This document shows positions 1 to 15,118 of a stretch of 15,444 nucleotides of DNA, in pieces. Source of the stretch: an uncultured Sediminicola sp. (GTDB lineage: Bacteria; Bacteroidota; Bacteroidia; Flavobacteriales; Flavobacteriaceae). The notes under the pieces were generated by a model. The model searched no databases, was not told where the DNA came from, and saw only the letters and a list, made by a program, of their open reading frames with translations. The first letter of the stretch is position 1, and every line of letters begins with the position of its first letter. The stretch covers positions 1 to 15,444 of the forward strand of contig CALHVB010000054.1 of the NCBI GenBank assembly GCA_938039345.1, given 5' to 3'. The translations under genes were made by a program, and so were the position numbers.

Positions 1-58
1 TTACAACCAATAATTATTATTTTCAATACTTTTGATTATTAGTTGTAAGTTTTCTTGT

Positions 59-89
59 AAAAGACTTCCTATTGCTAGGAAGCCTTTTT
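59..89 (+). terminator. Terminator-like hairpin of repeat unit 1
   Basis: AAAAG-A-CTTCCTA, loop TTGC, TAGGAAG-C-CTTTT followed by another T. The stem is 12 bp with one A-C mismatch and has a U-rich 3' side, the form of an intrinsic terminator. It is nearly symmetric, so it could stop transcription from either side. The same structure recurs at 164-194, weakened by a T-to-C change in the tail, and at 270-300. Confidence 0.6.
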
Positions 90-163
90 AACCAAAGTAA
101 CCTAATTACAACCAATAATTATTATTTTCAATACTTTTGATTATTAGTTGTAAGTTTTCTTGT

Positions 164-194
164 AAAAGACTTCCTATTGCTAGGAAGCCTTCTT
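164..194 (+). terminator. Terminator-like hairpin of repeat unit 2
   Basis: This is the second copy of the CTTCCTA-TTGC-TAGGAAG hairpin. The 3' tail reads CCTTCTT instead of CCTTTTT, which breaks one A-U pair and the U run, so it should be a weaker terminator than the other two copies. Confidence 0.5.
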
Positions 195-269
195 AACCAA
201 AGTAACCTAATTACAACCAATAATTATTATTTTTAATGTTTTTGATTATTGATTTATAAGTTTTCTTGT

Positions 270-300
270 AAAAGACTTCCTATTGCTAGGAAGCCTTTTT
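270..300. terminator. Terminator-like hairpin of repeat unit 3, facing the small membrane gene
   Basis: AAAAG (270-274) pairs with CTTTT (295-299), and CTTCCTA (276-282) with TAGGAAG (287-293), with one A-C mismatch between the two blocks. It is the first strong hairpin that a leftward transcript of the gene at 359-475 would meet, so it may end that transcript. In that direction the tail is CTTTTAC, a shorter U run than on the + strand. Confidence 0.55.
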
Positions 301-358
301 AACCAAAGTAACCTAATTACAACCAATAATTATTATTTTTAATGTTTTTCGTTTCGTA

Positions 359-475
359 CTAAAAAAATGCTAATATCAATACAGATAATACAATAGCTAA
401 AATTGTATCTAGAGAGATAATTACTATAGAAAGTAATCCTTTTAAAAATCCGTCTTTAAATGTTAGCTCGTTCAT
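359..475 (-). CDS. Small single-span membrane peptide, 38 aa, paralogue of the gene at 744-869
   Basis: The leftward ORF starts at ATG (475-473) and stops at TAG. The product opens with a short polar segment (MNELTFKDGFLKG), followed by about 25 hydrophobic residues (14-38) ending in LILAFF, with one acidic residue (D23) inside the span. It is too short for routine gene callers. The case for it being real is the second gene at 744-869: ungapped alignment of the first 16 residues keeps M1, T5, F6, L11, G13, L15 and S16, and both products end in LILA...FF. The ten bases ATAATGGTTA (+ strand), which cover the start and the sequence just upstream, are identical in both. The function is not recognised. 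Candidates are a hydrophobic toxin-like peptide or a small membrane regulator, both inference. Confidence 0.6.
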   Translation of the reverse strand: MNELTFKDGFLKGLLSIVIISLDTILAIVLSVLILAFF

Positions 476-743
476 AATGGTTAGTGTTTATTATATAACT
501 ATATTTCTTAACTTATGTAAAGCTACAAAAAATTAAGAAAAAGACTACATTTGTTGTTGTGAAAATTAATAAAAATGTTGTGTAGATGTATTTTATGTAT
601 TTCTTATCGATTAAAAGTCAAAAATTGATTTTAAGAAATCATATTTTTTGTAGGAAAAAAAGAAATAATGAATATGCTAGTTATAAAAACTACATTATAA
701 GGTTAAGTTCATTTAGGGATAGTTGTATTTCTTATGATAGTGT
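476..743. other. Intergenic spacer between the two small membrane genes
   Basis: No third copy of the small gene was found on either strand. The stretch is very AT-rich. It has an AT-only-stem hairpin at 611-634 (TTAAAA-g-TCAA, loop AAA, TTGA-TTTTAA) and an 11-bp direct repeat GTATTTCTTAT at 597-607 and 725-735. It should hold the promoter of the gene at 359-475, but no good TAnnTTTG box was seen on the minus strand. Confidence 0.5.
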
Positions 744-869
744 TTAAAAGAAACCTAGAGCTGCTAATATTAAGCAAACAATTACTGCAATTATGATAAG
801 AATTAGAACAACAACCATAACACTTAAAAACCCGTTTAAAATTTTAGATCCAAAAGTTGCATTTTCCAT
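744..869 (-). CDS. Small single-span membrane peptide, 41 aa, paralogue of the gene at 359-475
   Basis: The leftward ORF starts at ATG (869-867) and stops at TAA. The product has a polar head (MENATFGSKILNG) and then an almost unbroken hydrophobic stretch from about residue 14 to 41, rich in V, I and L, with C32 and a terminal ALGFF. It matches the other small gene in length, head-to-span layout, seven identities in the first 16 residues, the LILA motif near the end, and the bases just upstream of the start. The two starts are 394 bp apart in the same direction, as expected from a local duplication. The duplication with conserved reading frame and start region is the main evidence that both are translated. 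The function is unknown. Confidence 0.6.
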   Translation of the reverse strand: MENATFGSKILNGFLSVMVVVLILIIIAVIVCLILAALGFF

Positions 870-917
870 AATGGTTATATTTCATATAGTTTCCATTAAA
901 ATAACAAATAAATAACT

Positions 918-940: not shown

Positions 941-1028
941 CATTCGATTAAAGGTTATAAGATTAAGGTGTTCGGTATTGTGTAAAAACAATAGAGACTC
1001 TTATTAAGTAAGGCTTATAAGCTTTATT

Positions 1029-2270
1029 CTAAAGCAGTGTTTGTCGTTTTATATAATCTAAGATAATTTTACTAGCCCCTGTATTTGTAGCCACATAATT
1101 TTTATTTATTAAACCAGTAGTCTTACAATATTCTGCGTTAGTGTATAATTTATCTACAATAAGGTTAAAATCAGAAGCACTAGTAACGGGTATGATTCCT
1201 TTTTTATCTACCAAATCTTTTGCTTCTTTAAAACCATCGAATTGCGGACCAATAATAATAGGCATGCCAAAAACGGCAGGTTCTAACGTATTATGTAAAC
1301 CCGTAGCAAAACCTCCACCAACATATCCTATATTGGCATAACTATATATTTTAGTTAAAATCCCAATAGTATCTATAATAAGGACATCATAAGAAGAAAT
1401 ATTTTGTTTATTTACCTCAGAATATAAAATACTCTTTTTAGAAATAGCCTTTTTTAACTCTTGTATATGTGTTGGTTTAATATTGTGCGGTGCAATAACA
1501 TATTTAAGAGAAGAGGTATAAGAGTTTATATGTTGTATTAATAAGTTTTCATCTTGTGGCCATGTACTCCCCGCTATAAAACAAAGGTTCTTTTGCTTAA
1601 AAGAGTCCATAAAATCCAAAGAATTATCGTTTGTTAAAATTTCTGAAACCCTATCAAATCTAGTGTCGCCACTAATGGTAGTGTTTTTAATATCTATACT
1701 ATTTAGTAGTTGTATAGATTTTTGGTCTTGTAAAAAGATATGTGTAAAATAGGATAAGCTATTGCGCATAAAGCCTCCATACCACTTAAAGAATAACTGT
1801 TTTTTATTAAAAATAGCTGAGGTTAGTAGTACTGGAACTTGTTTTAAATTTAAAGCTTTTAAAAAAGAAGGCCATATTTCATACTTTACAAAAATGGCTA
1901 ATTGCGGATTAACAAGGGTTATAAATTTTTTTGCATTGTATTTTGTGTCTAAAGGTAAGTAACATATAAAATCGGCTATGCTAGTGTTTTTTTTAATTTC
2001 ATACCCCGATGGAGAGAAAAAAGTAACTAATATTTTATGGTTAGGATAATTAACCTTTAATTTTTCTATAACAGGTAAGCCTTGCTCATATTCCCCTAAA
2101 GATGCAGTGTGTATCCAAATAACGGCATCTTCTTTAGAAAGTTTTTCTTGTAAATAAGAAAAGGTGTTTTTTCTACCTTTAACAAACAATGCTATTTTAG
2201 GATTAAATAAAGCTATACCTTTTAAAAAAAAGGAAACAAGGTATATTACAATATTATAGATGCTGTGCAC
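1029..2270 (-). CDS. waaA: 3-deoxy-D-manno-octulosonic acid (Kdo) transferase
   Basis: WaaA (KdtA) moves Kdo from CMP-Kdo onto lipid A precursor at the cytoplasmic face of the inner membrane, the first step of the LPS core. The product is 413 residues, the usual length for the family. An N-terminal hydrophobic anchor lies at about 5-22. The GT-B N-domain signature WIHTASLGEYEQG is at 52-64, with E60 matching the family's catalytic Glu. The C-domain has GGGFATGLHNTLEPAVFGMP, the CMP-Kdo binding motif. The start codon is GTG at 2270-2268; no in-frame ATG lies close upstream, and the sequence after it (HSIYNIVIYL) fits the family N-terminus. It is divergent from the aminotransferase gene across a 94-bp gap. 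A near-consensus leftward box, TATTTTAG, lies in that gap. How many Kdo residues it adds cannot be told from sequence. Confidence 0.95.
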   Translation of the reverse strand: MHSIYNIVIYLVSFFLKGIALFNPKIALFVKGRKNTFSYLQEKLSKEDAVIWIHTASLGEYEQGLPVIEKLKVNYPNHKILVTFFSPSGYEIKKNTSIADFICYLPLDTKYNAKKFITLVNPQLAIFVKYEIWPSFLKALNLKQVPVLLTSAIFNKKQLFFKWYGGFMRNSLSYFTHIFLQDQKSIQLLNSIDIKNTTISGDTRFDRVSEILTNDNSLDFMDSFKQKNLCFIAGSTWPQDENLLIQHINSYTSSLKYVIAPHNIKPTHIQELKKAISKKSILYSEVNKQNISSYDVLIIDTIGILTKIYSYANIGYVGGGFATGLHNTLEPAVFGMPIIIGPQFDGFKEAKDLVDKKGIIPVTSASDFNLIVDKLYTNAEYCKTTGLINKNYVATNTGASKIILDYIKRQTLL

Positions 2271-6651: not shown

Positions 6652-6663
6652 CGCCACAATTTA

Positions 6664-6710
6664 ATGAGGAAAAATTTGACTGATTGCAACCTCGAAAAAA
6701 ATGCTAAAGC
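6664..6710 (+). promoter_or_regulatory. SAM-II-type riboswitch in the metK leader
   Basis: The stretch shows the SAM-II pseudoknot order. P1 is TGAGG (6665-6669) with CCTCG (6690-6694). The loop contains ATTTGACTGATTGCAA (6674-6689), with the AUUUG and AUUGCAA elements of the class. An A-rich linker follows, then ATGCTAAAGC (6701-6710), the conserved GCUAAA that forms the pseudoknot with ATTGCA (GCA 6686-6688 with TGC 6702-6704, and TT 6684-6685 with AA 6706-6707). The loop between P1 strands is 20 nt, close to the 19 nt of characterised SAM-II RNAs as I recall them. The related SAM-V class shares this core and cannot be excluded. It sits 94 bp before metK, whose product makes SAM, so feedback repression is the natural reading. 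Confidence 0.8.
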
Positions 6711-6803
6711 AGTTATAGCTGTAAATATCTATTTCAGTTTGTAATTTTCTTTATCTATTTCCGTCAAAAATCAGTCTTAAGTAATAAAATTAAATAAACA
6801 TTT

Positions 6804-10146: not shown

Positions 10147-10174
10147 CACTCGCAAGTTCAAACATATATTGAAT

Positions 10175-10287
10175 AGTTATCAAGAAAGGTGGAGGGATTA
10201 GACCCATTGAAGCCTTAGCAACCCTCTGTTTTTACAGAGAAGGTGCTAAATTCTACCAAAGTAAATTTATACTTATGGCAGATAACG
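10175..10287 (+). promoter_or_regulatory. SAM-I (S-box) riboswitch of the methionine operon
   Basis: All S-box landmarks are present in order. P1 is GTTATC (10176-10181) with GATAAC (10281-10286). AAGAAAGGTGGAGGGATTAGA and CCCATTGAAGCCTTAGCAACC form P2 with its kink-turn and pseudoknot loop. P3 is CTCTGT-TTTT-ACAGAG (10224-10239). Then come AAGGTGCTAAATTCTACC, and P4 AAGTA/TACTT (10259-10263 with 10270-10274). The class binds SAM and turns methionine genes off. Here it precedes metY by about 130 bp, and the rest of the operon follows. Confidence 0.97.
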
Positions 10288-10293
10288 AAAAAC

Positions 10294-11734: not shown

Positions 11735-14700
11735 ATGTTACATCATTTAAAAATAAATAATTATACCAATCATGGAGGTACAACTCAAGATTTAGAGTTG
11801 TCTTATCAACTGTTTGGACCTAAATTGCATACAGCACCTATAGTATTGGTGAACCATGCACTTACAGGAAATTCTGATGTAGCAGGCGAAAACGGATGGT
11901 GGTCAGCATTAATCGGAGATGGTAAATGTATAGATACTCAAAAATATACGATTCTTTGTTTTGATGTTCCCGGTAATGGTCATGATGGTTTTGTAATAGA
12001 TAATTATAAAGATTTTGTTGCTCAGGATATAGCCAAAGTATTTTTGTTAGGTCTAGAGCAGCTTTCTGTTCAAAAGGTATTTGCACTTATAGGAGGTTCT
12101 ATGGGTGGTGGTATAGCATGGGAAATGGTAGCTTTAAAACCTAATTTGGCAGAAAACTTAATACCTGTAGCATCAGATTGGAAATCAACAGATTGGTTAA
12201 TTGCCAATTGTCAAATTCAGGAACAGTTTTTAATAAATTCTAAACAGCCTGTTCATGATGCACGTATGCATGCTATGTTGTGTTACCGTACTCCAGAATC
12301 TTTTAAAGAACGTTTTAAGCGAAGTACAAACGAAGAATTACAAGTTTTTAATGTAGAAAGCTGGTTAACACATCATGGGAAAAAGTTACAAGAAAGGTTT
12401 CAGCTTTCGGCGTATAAATTAATGAATCAGTTGTTAAAGACTATTGATATTACAAGAGGTAATAAAGATGCTTTTAACAGTATAGAAAAGAGTGCTACCA
12501 AAATACATATTATCGGTGTAGATTCAGATTTGTTTTTTACGGCAAAAGAGAATAAAGATACTTTTAAACAATTGGCGCAAGTAAATAGTAATGTAACCTA
12601 CGGAGAAATTAGGTCATTACACGGGCATGATGCTTTTTTAATAGAGTTTCAGCAAATGGAACAATTGTTAAAAGGAATTTTTGACCAACAAGGCAAAAGT
12701 AAACGTGTAAAAGTTTTAAAATTTGGCGGTAAATCTTTAGCCAATGGAGACGGGTTAAAGCGTGTTCTAGAGATTATAACTACTAAAGTTAAAGGCGGAG
12801 AAAATATAGCGGTTGTTTTATCGGCAAGAGAAAAAGCAACCAACCAATTAGAAGGTATTTTAAAGAAAGCAGCACAAGGTAAAACGTATACTAAAGATTT
12901 TGATGCTTTTAAAAAATACCAACAATCTAATTTAGATGTTGAGTTATCTCAAGAGTTTTTAGATTTAGAAAAGTTGTTCGAAGGGGTTTCTCTTTTAGGA
13001 GATTATAGTGCAAAAATTAAAGATCAGGTTTTAGCTTATGGAGAGTTAATTTCGGCAAAGGTAGTTGTAAAATTATTGGGAGACCAAGAAGTTAAAGCTA
13101 AATTAATAGATGCCAGAGATATTATAAAAACAGATGCAAGTTTTGGTGATGCTCAGGTTTTAGAAGCAATTTCTAAAGAAAATGTATTGTCAGAGATAGC
13201 AAAGTTGGCAACTAATGTGGTACCTGTTGTTACTGGTTTTATAGCATCAAACAGAGATAATGAAACAACTACTTTAGGTAGAAACGGAAGCAATTATACG
13301 GCGGCTTTGGTGGCAAACTTTTTAGATGCTGCTGAATTACAAAATTATACACATGTAGATGGTATTTATACCGCAAATCCAGATTATGTGCCAGATGCAA
13401 AAAAGATAGAAGAACTATCTTATGCAGAGGCTAACGAGCTTGCAAATTTGGGAGCAACAATTTTACATGCAAAAACAATAATTCCGTTAATAGAAAAGAA
13501 TATTCCATTACGGATATTAAATACTTTTAATAACGATGCTGAGGGAACATTAATAAGCGCAAAGACTAATAAGGAAGGAATAAAGTCTCTTTCTGTAATG
13601 GAAGATGTAGCACTTATTAATTTTGAAGGACGTGGTTTATTAGGTAAAGTTGGTGTAGATGCGCGTGTATTTAAAGCACTAAGTGCTAATAATATTAGTG
13701 TTAATATTATATCGCAAGGCTCTTCTGAACGTGGTCTAGGTTTTGTGGTAGATGCAGAAGATGCCTTAAAAGCAAAACAAGTATTAACAGAAGAGTTTAG
13801 TATAGATTTTGAGACTAAAGATGTAAACATGATTACTGTTATCGATGACGTTTCGGTAATTTCAATAGTTGGTCAAGATTTAAGTTCGTTTCATAAACCC
13901 TTTAACGCACTAATAAAAAATCAAATAGTTCCTTTATTATTTAATAATACTGTAACGGGTAAAAATGTGAGTTTAGTGGTAAAAAGAGTTGACCTATATA
14001 AAGCATTAAATGTAATGCATGGCCAGGTCTTTGGAATTAGCAAGAAAGTAAATATTGCTGTATTTGGACATGGAAATGTTGGGGGTACATTAATAAGTCA
14101 GCTATTAAAATCTGCTAGAGCCATAGAAGAACGTAAAGGAATACAGTTAAATGTTTTTGCTGTTGCTAATTCTAAAAAAGTAATTCTAAATAAAAAAGGA
14201 GTTACAAAAAAGTGGGAAAGTAATTTTGATGAAAAAGGGATTGCATATTCACCACAAACCATTTTTGATTATGTAAAGAAGCATCATTTAGAAAATTTAA
14301 TAGTAGTAGACAATACCGCTAGTCAAGAATTTGTTTTAAGTTATTTTGATTTTATAGCAAATGGTTTTGATATTGTATCGTCTAATAAAATAGCGAATAC
14401 ACTAGATTTTGAATTCTATAGTAAACTACGTTCAGAATTAACTAAAAATCAAAAGCAATATTTGTATGAAACCAATGTTGGTGCTGGTTTACCATTGATA
14501 GATACAATTAAGTTACTGCATTTGTCAGGAGAAAATATTACACAAATAAAAGGAGTGTTTTCTGGTTCTTTAAGTTATATTTTTAATACGTTTTCTGAAG
14601 TTGATAGGCCTTTTTCAGCTATTTTAAAAGAAGCTATGGATAAAGGTTTTACAGAGCCAGATGCTCGTGAAGATTTATCGGGGAATGATGTGGGACGTAA

Positions 14701-15118
14701 ATTATTAATATTAGCAAGAGAATTAGATTTAAGAAATGAACTAGAAGATGTACAGATAGAGAATTTAATACCTAAAGAATTGCAAAAAGGAACTGTTGAT
14801 GCATTTTTGAGCAATTTAGAAGTGTTAGATGAAGTTTTTGAAAAAATAAAAGCAGCACAAAAACCAAATTATGTATTGCGTTATGTAGGCGATTTGTCTG
14901 GAGATTTACAAAAAGAAATAGGAAATCTACAAGTAAAATTAATATCTGTTCCTAAAGAAAGTGCTTTAGGGCAAGTTAAAGGTTCCGATTCTATTATAGA
15001 AATATATACAGAATCTTATGGAGAAAAACCTTTGGTTATTCAAGGAGCAGGAGCAGGAGCAGCTGTAACGGCAAGAGGTGTTTTTGGAGATATATTGCGA
15101 ATTGTAGAAAAAGGATAA
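11735..15118 (+). CDS. Trifunctional fusion: homoserine O-acetyltransferase - aspartokinase - homoserine dehydrogenase
   Basis: One 1127-residue frame holds three enzymes of homoserine and methionine synthesis. Residues 1-318 are a MetX-like alpha/beta hydrolase with NHALTGNSDVAG (40-51), nucleophile S122 in GGSMGGG, D265 in DSDLF and H298 in GHDAF. It is shorter than free MetX (about 350-380) and lacks the long NVLGG loop. After a short linker (QGKSKR), 325-610 are aspartokinase: KFGGKSL, AYGELISAK, TTLGRNGSNYTAAL, THVDGIYTANPD, LGATILHAKT. Residues 615-765 are ACT regulatory domains. From 771 comes homoserine dehydrogenase: FGHGNVGG (777-784), SSNKIANT with K885, ETNVGAGLP and LSGNDVGRK with K989. 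The MetA/X step and two upstream steps are thus joined, while aspartate-semialdehyde dehydrogenase is not here. The AK-HSD order equals ThrA/MetL. Acyl donor (acetyl rather than succinyl) is inferred from the MetX fold. Confidence 0.94.
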   Translation: MLHHLKINNYTNHGGTTQDLELSYQLFGPKLHTAPIVLVNHALTGNSDVAGENGWWSALIGDGKCIDTQKYTILCFDVPGNGHDGFVIDNYKDFVAQDIAKVFLLGLEQLSVQKVFALIGGSMGGGIAWEMVALKPNLAENLIPVASDWKSTDWLIANCQIQEQFLINSKQPVHDARMHAMLCYRTPESFKERFKRSTNEELQVFNVESWLTHHGKKLQERFQLSAYKLMNQLLKTIDITRGNKDAFNSIEKSATKIHIIGVDSDLFFTAKENKDTFKQLAQVNSNVTYGEIRSLHGHDAFLIEFQQMEQLLKGIFDQQGKSKRVKVLKFGGKSLANGDGLKRVLEIITTKVKGGENIAVVLSAREKATNQLEGILKKAAQGKTYTKDFDAFKKYQQSNLDVELSQEFLDLEKLFEGVSLLGDYSAKIKDQVLAYGELISAKVVVKLLGDQEVKAKLIDARDIIKTDASFGDAQVLEAISKENVLSEIAKLATNVVPVVTGFIASNRDNETTTLGRNGSNYTAALVANFLDAAELQNYTHVDGIYTANPDYVPDAKKIEELSYAEANELANLGATILHAKTIIPLIEKNIPLRILNTFNNDAEGTLISAKTNKEGIKSLSVMEDVALINFEGRGLLGKVGVDARVFKALSANNISVNIISQGSSERGLGFVVDAEDALKAKQVLTEEFSIDFETKDVNMITVIDDVSVISIVGQDLSSFHKPFNALIKNQIVPLLFNNTVTGKNVSLVVKRVDLYKALNVMHGQVFGISKKVNIAVFGHGNVGGTLISQLLKSARAIEERKGIQLNVFAVANSKKVILNKKGVTKKWESNFDEKGIAYSPQTIFDYVKKHHLENLIVVDNTASQEFVLSYFDFIANGFDIVSSNKIANTLDFEFYSKLRSELTKNQKQYLYETNVGAGLPLIDTIKLLHLSGENITQIKGVFSGSLSYIFNTFSEVDRPFSAILKEAMDKGFTEPDAREDLSGNDVGRKLLILARELDLRNELEDVQIENLIPKELQKGTVDAFLSNLEVLDEVFEKIKAAQKPNYVLRYVGDLSGDLQKEIGNLQVKLISVPKESALGQVKGSDSIIEIYTESYGEKPLVIQGAGAGAAVTARGVFGDILRIVEKG

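Follow-up and report, generated by a model that had tools for sequence, protein, structure and literature searches.

Background

Small membrane proteins of about 40 residues are often missed and functions are rarely assigned to them. Among the kinds that have been described, AcrZ and KdpF are single-helix accessory proteins of larger membrane proteins, while the type I toxins, compared here as the Hok, Ldr, TisB and DinQ kinds, are hydrophobic peptides that are often tandem-duplicated. Small membrane proteins with a part in the stress response, YohP among them, are also described. Closest in sequence to the peptides of this study, and by sequence of the same family, are proteins of the type of Celal_2019 of Cellulophaga algicola, which are annotated as hypothetical only, with neither a listed function nor a domain model.

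Here we analyse two short open reading frames (ORFs), ORF1 and ORF2, in a flavobacterial window, a term that we use for the whole 15,444-nucleotide stretch of DNA. The original prediction, that the two are related genes for tiny membrane proteins, is confirmed as an observation and borne out in part in its interpretation. Using comparative genomics, we describe a well-supported and testable family of roughly 40-residue membrane proteins from a group of marine flavobacteria; it comprises three subtypes and has a core locus that is fixed, along with candidate signals for expression.

Results and discussion

Two related reading frames next to kdtA

The window begins with a 105-bp tandem array, followed by ORF1, ORF2 and kdtA, the gene for Kdo transferase, and both ORFs run leftward (Table 1). 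The nearest locus found, L001, comes from an uncultured Cellulophaga, whose kdtA is 91% identical. The resemblance between ORF1 and ORF2 was described correctly in nearly every detail: both frames, of 38 and 41 residues, are present with ATG starts, seven of their first 16 residues (M, T, F, L, G, L, S) are identical without gaps, and a LILA...FF ending is common to the two. The string of identical bases across the two starts is real, although its length is 11 rather than ten (TAACCATTATG, at 473-483 for ORF1 and 867-877 for ORF2). The likeness also exceeds chance, as had been argued, in that an ORF2 profile built without ORF1 finds ORF1 with E=0.0031 among 33,955 stop-to-stop frames.

Table 1. 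Features of the locus and loci of the third type; positions refer to the window unless another locus is named
Feature	Position	Strand	Description
Tandem array	1-343	.	3.3 copies of a 105-bp unit, GCAA-loop hairpin; neighbour, outside the family
ORF1	359-475	(-)	38 aa, ATG start; diverged tandem paralogue of ORF2, by profile comparison
ORF1 translation start	476-488	(-)	A at -3, -6, -12, -13; 4/4
Candidate -7 region of ORF1 (TATAGTTA / TATATAAT), tentative	490-503	(-)	Identical in L001; weak TANNTTTG match
ORF2	744-869	(-)	41 aa, ATG start; predicted single-pass membrane protein, core family member (Celal_2019-type)
ORF2 translation start	870-882	(-)	A at -3, -6, -12, -13; 4/4
TATTTTAA, candidate -7 promoter element of ORF2	896-903	(-)	34 nt before ATG in the window
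TTTAATCGAA, conserved element upstream of ORF2, possible regulator site	943-952	(-)	TTARTCGA match
kdtA (Kdo transferase)	1029-2270	(-)	Pfam PF04413 and synteny; conserved upstream neighbour of ORF2
Third type	L203 5778-5903; L204 5963-6088; L205 5745-5870; L206 5842-5967; L207 5716-5841		Acidic mid-helix residue

Coding selection and translation starts

Between the window and L001, one of the 126 bases of ORF2 and four of the 117 bases of ORF1 differ, and all five changes are synonymous, an outcome with a chance of about 7e-4 at a synonymous fraction of 0.236. Of the codon changes in kdtA of this pair, 61 are synonymous and 35 non-synonymous. Mismatches amount to 8% in the sequence upstream of ORF2, to 6% in that separating the ORFs and to 3% in the region of the array, in which 85 of 358 bases have no counterpart in L001. 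Wider sampling gives the same picture as these five changes: when codons are aligned, dN/dS lies below 1 in all 175 ORF2 pairs (median 0.19, maximum 0.75), and in the 31 disjoint pairs it reaches about 0.50 at most. In an ungapped treatment, 17 of 116 pairs had given values of at least 1, two of 28 disjoint pairs among them, but none was left after codon alignment and these high values are therefore register artefacts. The synonymous bias for which the original prediction proposed to look is present, and ORF2 is a real gene under purifying selection.

Bacteroidetes do without Shine-Dalgarno sequences, and a profiling study of Flavobacterium found that adenines at -3, -6, -12 and -13 favour translation (PMC6847099). 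Adenine occupies these positions in 87, 79, 92 and 96% of 76 ORF2 genes, where random ORFs have it in about 30%, and all four together in 1.2% of 4064 random ORFs of 35-50 aa. Both genes of the window have the complete set, but in L012, L076 and L002 the genes of the ORF1 type have two of the four only. The bases immediately before both starts are nearly unchanged between the window and L001, as might also be expected if ORF1 and ORF2 were not genes but chance frames over a conserved non-coding region. To that reading we assign next to no probability, given the synonymous-only change, the frames that are intact in 75 relatives, the start adenines and the homology at the protein level.

Promoter-like elements upstream of ORF2

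In the 76 regions upstream of ORF2, which come from related genomes so that motif counts are not independent, the relaxed -7 motif TANNTT[GTA] is present 73 times (mean 20.4 and maximum 35 of 76 in 300 shuffles), and in 66 of the 76 it begins 24-27 nt before the ATG (shuffled maximum 10). The -7 consensus, as given in the same study (PMC6847099), is TTTG/TANNTTTG. The motif of ORF2 is mostly TANNTTG, one T less than TANNTTTG, and exact TANNTTTG forms no peak upstream of ORF2 starts. Judged by this -7-like motif, transcription of ORF2 would start at a promoter of its own. Further upstream, with a peak about 73 nt before the ATG, the sequence TTARTCGA occurs exactly in 44 of the 76 regions and with one mismatch in 16, and is not found in the other 16 (shuffles 0.5%).

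A regulon search was carried out with a strict combined pattern in 19 genomes, mostly picked because their ORF2 shows the upstream element. The pattern occurs once in each of 14 genomes, 13 times at ORF2 and once (L149) away from any family member, and no regulon was seen; a reversed control gave three hits in the 19 genomes. This concentration on ORF2, together with its promoter-like element and conserved upstream site, would suit a membrane-active stress peptide in the manner of YohP, made in response to a signal read through TTARTCGA and acting, with no one protein as its partner, to lower metabolism or the energisation of the membrane. Such a role is possible but, in our view, unlikely, as the one-sided conservation of the helix (see below) and the tightly conserved LNGFL stretch near the N-terminus suggest a specific contact.

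Distribution of the ORF2 family and its linkage to kdtA

A scan of species genomes for kdtA gave 259 relatives, and among the best 80 of these 259 loci, which were retained, 75 have an ORF2 homologue with an intact frame on the same strand downstream of kdtA. The frameshifts and stops that would speak against the gene are thus absent from these 75 relatives. Three of the five remaining loci are short contigs (L037, L071 and L072); the genome of L071 carries ORF2 on another contig, as does that of L056 (L083), and a genome scan detected no ORF2 in those of L037 and L072 either. In L045 (10889-11983), where kdtA is present, nothing credible for ORF2 was found in the locus or in its genome (G012) and, as this is a member of the genus, ORF2 is not indispensable. 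Across the genus, 17 of 18 genomes contain ORF2, and in 16 of these 17 its neighbour is kdtA or the porter gene that comes after kdtA; only the copy in G011 departs from this. A short ORF beginning MREVT lies near the expected place of ORF2 in L045.

A sugar-porter gene (PF00083) stands between kdtA and ORF2 in 53 of 76 loci, the window counted, and is absent or not recognised there in the other 23. In L134/L157 the porter matches come in overlapping pieces only and the gene looks broken, with ORF2 intact, so that ORF2 seems to be selected independently. In a family scan of 299 sampled genomes, the ORF2 type was found in 52 at E<=0.01 (three of the 52 weaker than 0.001), and a class-wide scan was positive in three of 395, all three already in the family scan. 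As far as sampled, the ORF2 family is restricted to part of the Flavobacteriaceae. Diverged ORF2-like frames were noted at L103 1492-1623 (G002), L153 5651-5809 (G225) and L158 8573-8767 (G264), in stretches where no kdtA was found.

A database search with ORF2 returned 45 matches of 36 to 44 aa at E<=10, the window's own protein included. The annotated relatives, Celal_2019 and proteins of Eudoraea, Muriicola and Robiginitalea, are 41 to 42 aa long and 59 to 78% identical to ORF2, so that gene callers do not always miss this family, as the original prediction had supposed. ORF2 belongs with the Celal_2019-type proteins by its full-length match, a length within 41 to 48 aa and an LNGFL-type motif. 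No model of Pfam or NCBIfam reached its cut-off, and PHROGs and PADLOC yielded nothing credible. The best domain match, DUF2649 on P0041 with E=0.016, was rejected, since its 15.9 bits fall short of the cut-off of 25. A literature search of limited depth brought up no work recognisable as concerning these proteins. The family is of a known kind, with no matching domain model or described function that we could find.

No neighbour except kdtA is constant across the ORF2 loci. The family scan supplied 28 loci, some of them shared with the set of 80 kdtA loci, and in 27 of the 28 the gene directly upstream is kdtA or the porter, even where the porter is absent or broken-looking. A dedicated accessory subunit of KdtA, or of another lipopolysaccharide enzyme, would account for so lasting a linkage, and by linkage only KdtA is a candidate partner of ORF2. 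We nevertheless regard this role as distinctly unlikely. ORF2 has a separate promoter-like element, L045 has kdtA without a recognised ORF2, and galE and DegT of the kdtA block are stably linked too, which makes the synteny weak evidence for a functional tie; vertical inheritance alone can produce it.

ORF1 and a third, dispersed type

Homologues of ORF1 were found 139 to 260 nt after ORF2 (as stop-to-stop frames) only in L001, L002, L012 and L076, and ORF1 has counterparts at the corresponding place in three other lineages. A second scan, of hydrophobic ORFs within 700 nt after ORF2, gave no further convincing ORF1-type gene. With the ORF1 profile, the family scan was positive in 43 of 397 at E<=0.05; strong ORF1-type matches were confined to G001, G002, G090 and G300, and many of the others were ORF2 picked up through homology. 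The same scan revealed a third, dispersed type in G720, G261, G052, G272 and G323 (Table 1).

Profile-profile comparison with hhalign links these types. The ORF2 and ORF1 profiles score 40.9, against at most 23.3 in segment-wise column shuffles (n=150) and 19.4 in full shuffles (n=150), and ORF1 and the third type score 45.4, against at most 21.5 in shuffles. The score of ORF2 against the third type, 22.2, is not above that of its shuffles (maximum 23.3), and the connection between these two therefore rests on ORF1. By these measures ORF1 is a diverged tandem paralogue of ORF2, homologous by profile to the Celal_2019-type family yet forming a separate subgroup. Halfway along its helix lies the acidic residue D23, and in the nine aligned sequences of the ORF1 and third types one mid-helix position is taken by D, E, N or H. 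No neighbour recurs among the five loci of the third type, which thus provide no functional clue. The further paralogues that the original prediction proposed to seek to the left of the window did not appear in 11.9 kb searched across the array in the closest relative (G001 contig 13).

A predicted single helix with a conserved face

Hydropathy and AlphaFold2 agree that ORF2 is a small hydrophobic peptide with a single membrane helix, modelled from a 58-row alignment at residues 6-38 (mean pLDDT 89.6, pTM 0.53). Together with the homology, the synonymous bias, the conserved translation starts and the tandem duplication, this bears out the suggestion of a family of tiny single-helix membrane proteins. 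Among solved structures, no relative was found at E<=1. Conservation peaks at residues 7, 11, 14, 15, 18, 22, 25, 26, 35 and 39. At 100 degrees per residue, positions 11, 14, 15, 18, 22, 25, 26 and 29 fall on one side of the helix, while L35 and G39, also strongly conserved, fall off it; the permutation P for this periodicity is 0.034, 0.015, 0.009 and 0.19 over four residue ranges. A Lys or Arg directly precedes the LNGFL-type motif in 75 of 76 sequences, and the last 26 residues contain no acidic residue in 51 of 76, a pattern that suggests a cytoplasmic N-terminus.

Comparison with type I toxin-antitoxin loci

It had been proposed that the locus resembles a type I toxin-antitoxin system, in which ORF1 and ORF2 would be tandem-duplicated membrane toxins curbed by antisense RNA. 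Short, hydrophobic and in tandem copies, the two peptides do share these traits with the type I toxins, but the remaining evidence makes the proposal very improbable. A -7 motif on the reverse strand, as an antisense RNA would need, reaches three of 76 at its best position, against 45 of 76 for forward TANNTTG, and Rfam gave no match above the gathering score near either ORF. The long, structured, translation-blocking leader typical of such toxins is not seen at ORF2, whose predicted leader, if transcription starts as the -7-like element implies, is too short for antisense control (the element lies mostly 24-27 nt, and in the window 34 nt, before the ATG), and the intergenic region has no unusual RNA fold (z -1.35 and -0.65). 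The start adenines point to strong translation, which also speaks against a toxin.

The distribution is likewise unlike the patchy, mobile and multicopy occurrence of type I toxins. ORF2 keeps its place beside kdtA or the porter gene within the genus, as described above, and neither peptide matched plasmid or phage records (72,556 and 50,697), although the low-complexity filter of that search may mask hydrophobic matches. A peptide-pattern scan of viral contigs produced 84 pattern matches, none of them a relative by tblastn. ORF1 and ORF2 thus resemble normal constituents of the cell more than they do a toxin system.

Nor does the adjacent hairpin array, which had been read as a further sign of such a system, lend support. 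Its exact hairpin core is present in one of the 18 genus genomes (G001), against 17 with ORF2, so that array and gene family are not inherited together. Its unit folds strongly (z -4.85), with 13 pairs in the predicted minus-strand fold. The two sites called as terminator-like lie on the plus strand, hence none in the direction of the ORFs, and the array probably consists of terminators. It appears to be a separate, young feature. In G001 the core is found at two contig edges, closing one contig and opening another; contig 13 bears matching units at its end, the array probably broke the assembly of this nearest relative, and contigs 13 and 14 would adjoin. On the far side of the array in the nearest relative is what we take to be an amidinotransferase/ctlX-like gene.

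Proposed role of ORF2 and its paralogues

We consider the chances about even that ORF2 is an accessory helix for a larger inner-membrane protein or for itself. Like the AcrZ- and KdpF-type accessory proteins, it is a short protein at a fixed place with a single conserved membrane helix under purifying selection; it differs from them in that no sequence relation was found. In the proposed scheme, ORF2 would be a vertically inherited gene that follows directly on kdtA, or on kdtA and the sugar-porter gene, yet has a promoter to itself and is read from a strong flavobacterial start. Its product would be a small inner-membrane protein of one helix, with a short N-terminal stretch that is probably cytoplasmic. 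By its one conserved face the helix may pack on a larger membrane protein or on itself, and this packing could tune the stability or activity of the partner, in the fashion of AcrZ. ORF1 would go back to an old tandem duplication and survive in a few lineages only, as a copy whose surface residues have been exchanged, a polar mid-helix one included, and which for this reason probably has another partner or pairs with ORF2.

A bolder extension, which we hold to be improbable, would unite ORF2, ORF1 and the third type as single-helix regulators of one superfamily, specific to this clade, whose members pair among themselves or with enzymes of the envelope. The member linked to kdtA would then set the output of lipopolysaccharide, itself controlled by a dedicated regulator with TTARTCGA as its site. 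If ORF2 does tune an envelope enzyme, it would provide a new handle on the control of the flavobacterial outer membrane.

Other features of the window

Elsewhere, the window contains SAM riboswitches of two classes (6660-6717 and 10174-10288): SAM-II precedes an ORF that resembles metK and SAM-I one that resembles a sulfhydrylase gene, with gene names assigned by eye. A single ORF of 1127 aa at 11735-15118 combines three parts, namely an alpha/beta hydrolase, an amino acid kinase that includes an ACT domain, and a homoserine dehydrogenase.
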